64,000 bases of DNA from Synechococcus lacustris (GTDB lineage Bacteria; Cyanobacteriota; Cyanobacteriia; PCC-6307; Cyanobiaceae), in assembly GCA_903943975.1 (NCBI GenBank), contig CAJAQB010000019.1, forward strand, positions 62,001-126,000, in the 5' to 3' direction. The first letter of the stretch is position 1, and each line of letters starts with the position of its first letter. Shown here one piece after another: positions 3,833 to 7,092 of the stretch. Position numbers and translations under genes: made by a program. A model generated the notes under the pieces. It searched no databases. It saw only the letters and a program-made list of their open reading frames with translations, and was not told where the DNA came from.

Positions 3833-4924
3833 ATGCGCCGTTACCAGTTGCTGCTTCTGCTCCTGCTAGGGGCAACTCCGGCCCTGGCGGAACCATCCCT
3901 ACGGGTGGGGGTTGTTGATGGGGGTGCCCCCTGCAATTTCCAGGTGAGTGGCGCCTGGAAGGGGCTGGCGGTGGATCTTTGGAGGGCTGTTGCCAACCGT
4001 GAGCGTCTGGCCTATGAGCTCGTGCCGATGGCCACCACGAGGGATCAGCTGGCAGCGGTGGAAAATGCTGAAGTGGACGTAGCTATTGGTTGTTTGTCGA
4101 TGACACCCACGCGTCTTGATCGTTATCGCTTTAGCCAAACTTACCAGGAATCGGGACAGGCGGTGATGCTGCAACGTCATCCCCTTGAATTGGGCCGCTC
4201 AATGTTGCTCTCCCTGTTCAGTCCTGATCTGTTTGCTTTGTTGTTGGGTTTTCTGGCGATTTTTATTGTTATGGCCCTAGGGGTCTGGCAAACAGATGCC
4301 TGGGGTAATAAGAATGAAACTTTAAATAATGGTCGGATACGCAGTTTTGCCAAGGTGTTTCAGATCCTGGCCACTGGTCCCGGTACTAACACGATTGTGG
4401 ATTCAGTGGGGGGCAACAGTCTGGTGGTGCTCAGTTATCTGTTGCGGGCACTTATGGCATCTTTTCTGGTTAGCTATGTGACCGTAAATGTGGTTCGCAA
4501 TCCAGCAAATCGCCTAGATGGAAACATGCGTTCCCTTGTTGATCTTCAGAATCAAAAGGTAGCCGTAAGAGTAGGCACTGCTAGCCAAGGCATACTTCAG
4601 GAGGTCATGAGAACTAATCCTGCCCTGTCGATTAAGATAGTCCCGATGAATCGCATTGACCAAGCTCCCTTTATGCTGGAATCGGGCCGCGCTAGTGCCG
4701 TGCTCGCAGATGAACAGCAACTGCTTTATCTGATGAAGAATTTAAAGGAAAAGAAGTTTCACATTGTCTTGAATAATCTCTATCCAGACTATCAGGGTTT
4801 TATCTTTGCCAAGGGCCTTGAGCCAGCTATTGCTGGCCAGATAAATAGAGGAATTGTCGAAGTAAGGCGCTCGGGTCTGCTGCAGGAGATCAAGAATTCC
4901 CTGGGCATGGAGAATCTACAATAA
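3833..4924 (+). CDS. ligand-gated ion channel-like protein (GluR0-type architecture) with atypical pore loop
   Basis: 363 residues with the layout of prokaryotic ionotropic glutamate receptors. There is a signal peptide (1-19, ending ALA), then a first solute-binding lobe (about 22-115), membrane helix M1 (about 130-152), a re-entrant pore region (about 168-195), M2 (about 196-220) and a second binding lobe (about 230-350). In GluR0 the selectivity filter is TVGYG; here the corresponding place reads ATGPGTN (180-186), so potassium selectivity cannot be assumed. Similar picocyanobacterial proteins have, as I recall, been annotated as possible GIC-family channels. A plain membrane-anchored binding protein is the alternative. 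It follows the MFS gene after 70 bp. Confidence 0.7.
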   Translation: MRRYQLLLLLLLGATPALAEPSLRVGVVDGGAPCNFQVSGAWKGLAVDLWRAVANRERLAYELVPMATTRDQLAAVENAEVDVAIGCLSMTPTRLDRYRFSQTYQESGQAVMLQRHPLELGRSMLLSLFSPDLFALLLGFLAIFIVMALGVWQTDAWGNKNETLNNGRIRSFAKVFQILATGPGTNTIVDSVGGNSLVVLSYLLRALMASFLVSYVTVNVVRNPANRLDGNMRSLVDLQNQKVAVRVGTASQGILQEVMRTNPALSIKIVPMNRIDQAPFMLESGRASAVLADEQQLLYLMKNLKEKKFHIVLNNLYPDYQGFIFAKGLEPAIAGQINRGIVEVRRSGLLQEIKNSLGMENLQ

Positions 4925-4964: not shown

Positions 4965-5831
4965 TTAAGGCTTCTTTTCCGGAAGTGGTGGCTTGCGTAG
5001 GCCATCGCCCAGAAACAACCAGCTGCCTTGGAGCTGAATTAATAATTGATTTAAATTACGCGCTGTGCTATCAAGCTCATGGATTGTATTCAGTAGATCT
5101 GGTCGCAGCTCGTTGAAGGTTTGCTGGGCGGCATTGGCGGCGTTGGTTGTGCTGCCGGCGGTGTGTCGAACAGCCGTACTGGTCTGCTCAATATTGCCCA
5201 GGGTTGAACGCAATACAGGGCCTGTGCTTCGCACTTCCTGGCCCACTTGTTTGCTCATCTGGCCCGCCTGGCTGAGGTTGCTACGCAAGCTTTGTAGGGT
5301 GTTTGGCACATCTTTCTGGGCTAATTGGGTGGTGCCAAGCAAGGTGCGGTTCAATTCCTGCCTAGTGCCTTGGAGATCATTCAGAAAACTCTGCAAACTG
5401 ATGGCTGCTTCGAAGGGCAGTCGCTGGGGCAGGGGCCTTGAACTTGTTTGGCCCCCTGGGGCGGGGTCAGGCTTAAGCACCACAAAAGCGTCACCCAGCA
5501 GGGTGACACTGCCGGTGCTAACTGTGGAGCGGGGGCCTAGGTAGCGGCGGTAGGGCTCGCCGATGCGCAATTCCACCTCCACTGAAGCATCAGGCTGAAG
5601 TTTGATCTGCTGCACCTGGCCCACCCGTATGCCAGAGAGGTGCACATCCATGCCCCGTTTGAGGCCTAGGGCAGAGGGGGCTCGAAAATAAACAGGAAAG
5701 CGAGCTTCTCCCCAGCTCTGCTGGCGGCCGATGGCCACAAGAAAAAGGCCTAGCACCAGCAAGCCACTGCCGATGAAAAGTAGCGAGGGGGTGCGAAATT
5801 CAGAGCTATAGGCAGAGGCAGTTGGTTTCAT
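4965..5831 (-). CDS. MlaD-like MCE-domain protein of a lipid ABC transporter
   Basis: Anchored periplasmic substrate-binding/tunnel component of an MCE-type lipid transporter. The 288-residue protein has one N-terminal membrane helix (SLLFIGSGLLVLGLFLVAIG), an MCE domain from FPVYFRAPSALGLKRGM to GDAFVVLKP, and a long Gln/Asn/Thr-rich helical tail rich in LRSNL/IEQTSTAV-like repeats, as in cyanobacterial and plastid TGD2 proteins. I chose ATG at 5831 because it overlaps the upstream stop codon (ATGA), which indicates coupling to the ATPase-like gene. By analogy it moves phospholipids or galactolipids between envelope and thylakoid membranes. Confidence 0.88.
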   Translation of the reverse strand: MKPTASAYSSEFRTPSLLFIGSGLLVLGLFLVAIGRQQSWGEARFPVYFRAPSALGLKRGMDVHLSGIRVGQVQQIKLQPDASVEVELRIGEPYRRYLGPRSTVSTGSVTLLGDAFVVLKPDPAPGGQTSSRPLPQRLPFEAAISLQSFLNDLQGTRQELNRTLLGTTQLAQKDVPNTLQSLRSNLSQAGQMSKQVGQEVRSTGPVLRSTLGNIEQTSTAVRHTAGSTTNAANAAQQTFNELRPDLLNTIHELDSTARNLNQLLIQLQGSWLFLGDGLRKPPLPEKKP

Positions 5832-6382
5832 CGCTCTAGCAGGGCCCCTGGGGCAATGCTTGTCCATTGATTGCCGCTCGGCAACGGTTGCTCAGCATCA
5901 GCCACCACGATCCAGGCGGCGCCATTGAGTTGAGCCATGGTTTGCTGCCAGGGCTGTTGCTGCTGTTGCTGAGCCCGGGCAAACCAGTCGGCATCGAAAA
6001 TCAGCAAATGGGGCTCCAGTATTAGGGCGCGGATGAGGATGCCCGCTTGGGCCTCCAGGGGCGTTAGATCCCTGGAACGACTCTGGAGCAGTTCGCTGGC
6101 CCTGTCGCTGTTATAACCAAGGCATTGCAACAGTTCTCGGGCCCGATGGGCCACACTGCCCAGGCGCCGCGGCAGCCGCCAGCCAATCGGCAGCCAGATG
6201 TTCTCCGCCAGGGAGAGATGACTCACCAGCGCCCCCTTGAGGCTAAGTAAGCCGTAGCTGAGCTGTTCAGCGTTGGCATGGGCACAGAGTTGATCAATCA
6301 CACTTTCCTTCTCCACCAGGTTCTGGCCCCGGTAAAGCCAACGGGACCCCTGGGGTAACTGTTGCAAGGGCAGCAGTTTCAC
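5828..6382 (-). CDS. degenerate ATPase-like subunit of an MCE-type transporter (no Walker A)
   Basis: This gene sits where mlaF-type ATPases sit, between the MlaE-like permease and the MlaD-like protein, overlapping both by 4 bp. The 184-residue product keeps an ABC-ATPase outline: HLSLAENIWLP resembles the segment after the Q-loop, DLTPLEAQAGILIRAL aligns with the LSGGQ signature and following helix, and LLIFDADWF with Walker B. It has no Walker A (GxxGxGKS) at all, no signature serine/glycines, no catalytic glutamate after the Walker B aspartate, and no H-loop histidine (VVADAE). A poly-Gln run lies at about 138-144. It cannot be expected to bind and hydrolyse ATP normally; it may be a structural pseudo-ATPase. 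Confidence 0.7.
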   Translation of the reverse strand: MKLLPLQQLPQGSRWLYRGQNLVEKESVIDQLCAHANAEQLSYGLLSLKGALVSHLSLAENIWLPIGWRLPRRLGSVAHRARELLQCLGYNSDRASELLQSRSRDLTPLEAQAGILIRALILEPHLLIFDADWFARAQQQQQQPWQQTMAQLNGAAWIVVADAEQPLPSGNQWTSIAPGALLER

Positions 6383-7092
6383 AGGCTGGTGAGCGTGATC
6401 GGCTGGATCAAGGTGGAGCTCAGTAAATCAAGCAGCAACACCGCCACCAGCGCCTGCAGCACCCCTTCCGACACCAGGGATGGCAAGGAAAGACCCTGAT
6501 CACGGTCATTTAACTCGGCGCGGCTGCCCCACCAGCAGGTGATCAGCGAGGCCACCGCCCCACAGAGCCCGGCCCGCAACAGGGCCAAAACCATATCGAT
6601 GCCATTTATCTGGGAAAACAACAAGTCCAGCTCGCCGAGCACATCAAAATTCGGGGAGCTCACCACACTGATAATTACGCCGGTGGCCAGCCAATAACAG
6701 AGCAGCAACATGCAAGACAGGCTGCCGGCAACGGTGCAGGGCAGCACGTAAATGCCAAAGGGGTTAATGCCCTGGCGCCGTAGACCGCGCCACTCACCCT
6801 TGCCTGCCATCTCGCCAACCGATACAGCAATGGCCGCCCCTGAGCGGGCGATGAAAACCACGGGCACCAGCAGCGGACCCAGCACCCGCACCGAGACCAG
6901 CCATTGCAGGTGCACTGAATAGGCACTGCGCAAGCCGAGGGAATCGGTCATCAGTCGCACTTCGCCGGCGGCCAGGGCCGCCGCCATCAGCACCACCAAG
7001 CCAACCGATCGCACCCCATCTAGGTAGAGCAAGCGAAAGAACTCCCGCAGGGCCGGCAGTCGCGGCATCAATTTGAAGAGTGGGGCAGCCAT
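6379..7092 (-). CDS. MlaE-family ABC permease
   Basis: The 237-residue membrane protein belongs to the MlaE/TGD1 permease family of MCE-type lipid transporters. Hydrophobic segments occur near LVVLMAAALAAGE, LGPLLVPVVFIARSGAAIAV, YVLPCTVAGSLSCMLLL and the C-terminal VAVLLLDLLSS. The family hallmark, an acidic stretch after a small-residue-rich helix, appears as RSGAAIAVSVGEM. The stop overlaps the start of the ATPase-like gene (ATGA), giving the order permease, ATPase-like subunit, MCE protein. The HAD gene lies just upstream with an 8-bp gap, so all four may be one transcript. Confidence 0.88.
   Translation of the reverse strand: MAAPLFKLMPRLPALREFFRLLYLDGVRSVGLVVLMAAALAAGEVRLMTDSLGLRSAYSVHLQWLVSVRVLGPLLVPVVFIARSGAAIAVSVGEMAGKGEWRGLRRQGINPFGIYVLPCTVAGSLSCMLLLCYWLATGVIISVVSSPNFDVLGELDLLFSQINGIDMVLALLRAGLCGAVASLITCWWGSRAELNDRDQGLSLPSLVSEGVLQALVAVLLLDLLSSTLIQPITLTSL

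Follow-up and report, generated by a model that had tools for sequence, protein, structure and literature searches.

MCE systems move lipids in a direction, and with a need for ATP, that are both unsettled in the field. In the E. coli Mla transporter the coupling helix of the permease MlaE lies between TM2 and TM3, with E127, Q128, S131, M135 and R142 touching the ATPase MlaF, while L96 and R157 are two of the five MlaF residues that touch this helix in turn (PMC7784689). Elsewhere the ATPase may be shared, as with MceG, which serves several Mce systems (PMC9947336), and transport by PqiABC and LetAB is thought to be passive, driven by the PMF or powered by an unknown ATPase (PMC10897342). A literature search that covered few subscription journals found no description of an MlaE-type permease that operates independently of an ATPase.

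The locus described here lies in a window of 64,000 nucleotides, by which we mean the whole stretch that was analysed, taken from a 2.47 Mb draft genome of Synechococcus lacustris. Three genes on its minus strand, here called E2, F2 and D2, follow one another in that order (Table 1), with a HAD-family hydrolase gene upstream on the same strand. The stop of E2 and the start of F2 share 4 nt (GTGA, 6379-6382), and F2 overlaps the annotated start of D2 by 40 nt; if D2 begins at an internal ATG at 5831, which from its sequence context is the more likely start, this overlap shrinks to 4 nt (ATGA, 5828-5831). As GTGA and ATGA overlaps join them, the three genes are probably co-translated. Both outer genes are recognizable, such that E2 matches the Pfam MlaE family (PF02405, E=1.3e-20) and has the fold of an MlaE permease, its AlphaFold2 model (pLDDT 90.1) aligning in Foldseek with MlaE of 6xbd (TM 0.75, prob 1.00) at 20% identity to the E. 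coli protein, and D2 combines a PF02470 MlaD domain (E=7.9e-14 in Pfam; TIGR00996 at 1.4e-19) with a hydrophobic segment, read from the sequence, N-terminal to the MCE domain. An earlier note on this DNA had described F2 as lying between, and overlapping, an MlaE-like permease and an MlaD-like protein, which the open reading frame, the 4-nt overlaps and the Pfam matches of its neighbors bear out; the order of the three genes is E-F-D rather than the F-E-D of E. coli. On the plus strand of the window, at 3833-4924, lies a solute-binding-protein family 3 gene in which the domain match stretches across residues 23-355 for only 127 profile positions, with hydrophobic segments inserted mid-domain, and which resembles channels of the prokaryotic ionotropic glutamate receptor type.

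Table 1. Features of the E2-F2-D2 locus, in positions of the window.
Feature	Position	Strand	Description
E2	6379..7092	minus	divergent MlaE-type permease, 237 aa, second copy in genome
E2 coupling-helix segment, ~residues 99-115	6748..6798	minus	GEWRGLRRQGINPFGIY; between TM2 and TM3; retained, divergent
F2	5828..6382	minus	degenerate ABC nucleotide-binding domain, putative pseudo-ATPase, 184 aa, GTG start
F2 Walker A relic, residues 19-27	6302..6328	minus	GQNLVEKES; canonical GPSGxGKTT; G46 to E, T48 to E
F2 best-conserved stretch, residues 43-70	6173..6256	minus	YGLLSLKGALVSHLSLAENIWLPIGWRL; aligns with coupling-helix-contacting region of MlaF
F2 signature position, residues 106-110	6053..6067	minus	LTPLE, replaces LSGGQ/M
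F2 Walker B strand, residues 126-131	5990..6007	minus	LLIFDA; Asp (D130) kept, catalytic Glu to Ala
D2	4965..5867	minus	MlaD-like MCE protein, 300 aa as listed

By sequence comparison, F2 evidently descends from an ABC nucleotide-binding domain, the similarity spanning the helical domain to Walker B. Profile searches gave no significant match in Pfam and weak matches to ABC ATPase models in NCBIfam (1.8e-5 to 8e-4, three models below 1e-3). The best PDB match is the ABC ATPase OpuCA (E=0.001), an ABC HMM built for this analysis matches at 1.5e-5, and F2 aligns in register with ABC ATPases from the Q-loop to Walker B. A two-row F2 profile compared with MlaF in hhalign yielded a 19-column match at 19% probability, and an AlphaFold2 model of F2 from two sequences, with a pLDDT of 39, was set aside. 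A chance open frame is ruled out by base shuffling, which left the F2 stretch free of stops in only 33 of 20,000 shuffles, and by a homolog at a second locus; each of the other frames is interrupted by 5-8 stops.

That second locus (L074) emerged from an E2 profile search of 400 genomes of the host family, two of which hold F2. It lies on contig CAIZQU010000093.1 of an 'uncultured cyanobacterium' MAG (G249) from a different genus than the window genome and shows the same order of E2, F2 homolog (193 aa) and D2, with E2 and F2 overlapping by ATGA and a gap of ~170 nt between F2 and D2. Its F2 alone is too diverged for significant similarity to ABC ATPases. No convincing further member was found among 291 genomes of the class, where G483 matched at 6.6e-5, or in the rest of the genus to which G249 belongs, where five weak matches ranged from 1e-4 to 6e-4. 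A contig scan with F2 returned one convincing relative (L107), which is the same contig as L074, and 13 other matches, at 28-49% over short parts and from other phyla, that look like ordinary ABC ATPases; the same scan with E2 alone as query gave no match.

Aligning F2 with the MlaF proteins of E. coli and of the host (row L135 left out) revealed that, as judged from these columns, it has lost all catalytic motifs but the Walker B Asp. The P-loop Gly and Lys remain in the window copy, in a relic that no longer fits GxxGxGK[ST]; the signature column reads LTPLE in the window and LPIHQ in L074, neither of them LSGG[QM]; and the H-loop His is gone from both copies, with Asp / Pro at that column. 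The N-terminus and the interval from Walker A to the Q-loop are shortened in the alignment, and the equivalent of MlaF L96 is retained within the best-conserved stretch. A hidden Walker A or a frameshift was ruled out by a six-frame search of the region, which found G....GK[ST] in no frame. The statement of the earlier note that no Walker A, signature, catalytic Glu or H-loop His is recognizable is confirmed, qualified by the Walker B Asp and the relic Gly and Lys that are left. Past Walker B, at ~5951-5974, the window copy carries a glutamine run (QQQQQQ) that is missing from L074. We favor, with a probability of roughly 0.5, the reading that E2 and D2 form a second, diverged MCE lipid-transfer module whose ATPase subunit, F2, has turned into a structural pseudo-ATPase.

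Evaluating E2 further, we found its coupling-helix segment to be of normal length and divergent sequence, with E100 aligned to E127 of E. coli MlaE, GEW in place of the TEQ motif, and a modeled helix at residues 100-106 that falls between the second and third long helices, the place of the coupling helix. Canonical cyanobacterial MlaE proteins have 38 residues in this block, as do 3 of 64 E2 proteins (window, L074 and L077), whereas the remainder have 34-35 without the motif (4/64), 31 (1/64) or 20-29 (56/64), such that the helix, by alignment, appears to have been deleted from most E2 relatives. In L034, L035, L064 and L065 a TM2-TM3 loop of 34-35 residues is unlike a coupling helix, which may there have been replaced rather than deleted. 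F2 accompanies two of the three full-length helices and none of the other E2 loci, an association with a chance of about 0.0015 in a hand calculation that ignores relatedness; helix and F2 are imperfectly linked, because the G083 locus L077 keeps the helix and has no F2.

E2 occurs in about 77 of the 400 host-family genomes (profile search, row count), and almost all complete loci have D2 immediately behind E2 or overlapping it, with a gene between the two only in the window and L074. Strong E2 scores are restricted to the host family, the same profile finding weaker, canonical-looking MlaE proteins outside it. In a tree built without the coupling-helix columns, E2 proteins form a single clade apart from canonical MlaE (support 100), and the window and the group of L074, L077 and L076 fall outside a large, mostly helix-less clade (support 91). 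A number of the branches involved are long, and the precise order in which they split is uncertain. Purifying selection acts on the helix-less E2 genes and on D2, with dN/dS across 15 close pairs of 0.06-0.47 for E2 and 0.08-0.51 for D2. No ATPase gene recurs beside E2-D2 when the ABC HMM is run over all fetched E2 loci, where ABC-like genes are scattered (L070, L071, L073, L075, L081, L089, L090, L091 and L098). Both the rarity of F2 (2/400) and the apparent loss of ATPase gene and coupling helix from most E2 relatives go beyond what the earlier note had described. Helix-less E2 proteins may be overlooked or annotated as hypothetical, because two of three tested do not reach the Pfam MlaE cut-off (L036:1492-2169 and L057:1498-2157). 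Apparently broken, fragmented E2 copies in L072, L073, L075 and L068 suggest loss of the E2-D2 module in some lineages, and G049, G204, G226 and G339 each hold two E2 copies, some deeply diverged from one another.

The strongest rival, which we consider less likely, is that E2-D2 borrows the housekeeping MlaF, with F2 acting as a regulator or as the inactive half of an MlaF heterodimer in the manner of ABC transporters with one degenerate site. The window genome does hold intact canonical MlaE (L030), MlaF and MlaD (L032) elsewhere, its MlaF matching solved MlaF at 1.5e-47, so that the second, intact mlaF-like gene for which the earlier note had allowed exists and borrowing is possible. Exactly one canonical MlaF, at 64-73% identity, was likewise present in each of 20 host-family genomes tested, nearly all of them E2 carriers; MceG offers a precedent for a shared ATPase (PMC9947336), and the window E2 still has its coupling helix. 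However, the TEQ motif is gone from that helix, and the MlaF-binding helix as a whole has been lost from nearly all other E2 proteins, which makes borrowing unlikely for most of them. F2, moreover, has neither Walker A nor LSGG, the two halves of a composite site, and so presumably could not help to close even one ATP site.

Comparison of the two F2 copies bears on another alternative, that F2 is a functionless, decaying relic whose frame is held open by translational coupling of E2 and D2. The window and L074 proteins match pairwise at E=8e-11, 22 standard deviations above shuffles, and are 28% identical, against 30% for E2 and 26% for D2, so F2 is not diverging faster than its neighbors. This similarity persists although synonymous change has reached saturation (dS about 2.4), and both frames are open although an unconstrained F2 would be expected to gain ~20 stops at one substitution per site. 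Both copies share the Glu-to-Ala change, inside a D-A-x-W-F motif, both have lost LSGG (L074 also the P-loop Gly and Lys), and both retain the counterparts of MlaF L96 and R157 in the alignment. With the same lesions in the same place in a second genus, F2 is, from its sequence, no fresh pseudogene. A relic would fit the absence of F2 from nearly all E2 loci, which marks it as dispensable in most lineages, the poly-Gln run of the window copy, which suggests relaxed constraint, and the 4-nt overlaps at both ends, which could hold the frame open for translation of D2. Against it stand the protein similarity just described, at a rate the same as that of E2 and D2, and the L074 copy, which is intact though uncoupled from D2 by its gap. 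We regard decay as improbable. What weakens the pseudo-ATPase reading is that only two F2 sequences are known, one of them from a MAG, so that the case for constraint on F2 comes from a single, very diverged pair. That F2 keeps some nucleotide binding, or is a different enzyme with an unrecognized site, is very improbable: the window copy has its Walker B Asp and P-loop Gly and Lys, but L074 lacks even the P-loop residues, neither copy has a signature, a catalytic Glu or an H-loop His, and no other enzyme family matches F2 in Pfam, NCBIfam or further searches.

The structural pseudo-ATPase reading, one of those that the earlier note had offered for a frame it took to be intact, coupled and no obvious pseudogene, gains from the same degenerate gene in L074, from an F2 rate no higher than that of E2 and D2, and from the lack of a hidden Walker A in any frame. 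The frame and its overlaps agree with that description, and the decay in relatives that would have told against it is not seen in L074, the one other F2 locus. Under this pseudo-ATPase reading, F2 would dock on the remaining coupling helix of E2 and stabilize or position the E2 dimer without hydrolyzing ATP, while lipids would cross E2 and the ring of D2, either following their gradient or exchanged with a partner in the periplasm. The locus may then be a rare intermediate between an ATP-driven Mla transporter and an ATPase-free E2-D2 conduit, in which the ATPase would first have lost catalysis while keeping its docking role and later have been lost together with its dock. For the lineage as a whole we tentatively propose, at a little under even odds, that within one cyanobacterial family an MlaE-type ABC permease left ATP behind, at first with a retained pseudo-ATPase, as in the window and one further genus, and then, through loss of ATPase and coupling helix, as a stand-alone MlaE-MCE conduit that is passive or otherwise powered; the ATP independence of this conduit is something we infer.

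One permease occurs in a natural series, with a live ATPase (canonical), a dead one (window), and none with the helix deleted (about 70 relatives). The series offers a test of the part that ATP plays in complexes of MlaE and MCE proteins, and it illustrates how an active ABC transporter could have become a passive conduit. Among known systems, E. coli MlaFEDB (PDB 6xbd, 7cge) and the canonical MlaE, MlaF and MlaD of the host resemble the window locus in permease fold, MCE-domain partner, an NBD-derived third gene and operon organization. They differ from it in that the window NBD is, by its sequence, catalytically dead, in gene order as given above, and in that E2 is only ~20% identical to MlaE with a coupling helix that has diverged in the window and that most E2 relatives lack. 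Mycobacterial Mce systems with MceG likewise encode a YrbE-type permease and MCE proteins apart from an intact ATPase (PMC9947336). Their YrbE loops, however, retain an EExDA coupling motif and depend on MceG (PMC9947336), whereas the corresponding region is deleted from most E2 proteins, and the window locus has a dead NBD of its own. PqiABC and LetAB share with E2-D2 an MCE protein and a membrane partner with no dedicated ATPase (PMC10897342), but the fold of PqiA and LetA is unrelated, whereas E2 has the ABC-permease fold of MlaE.
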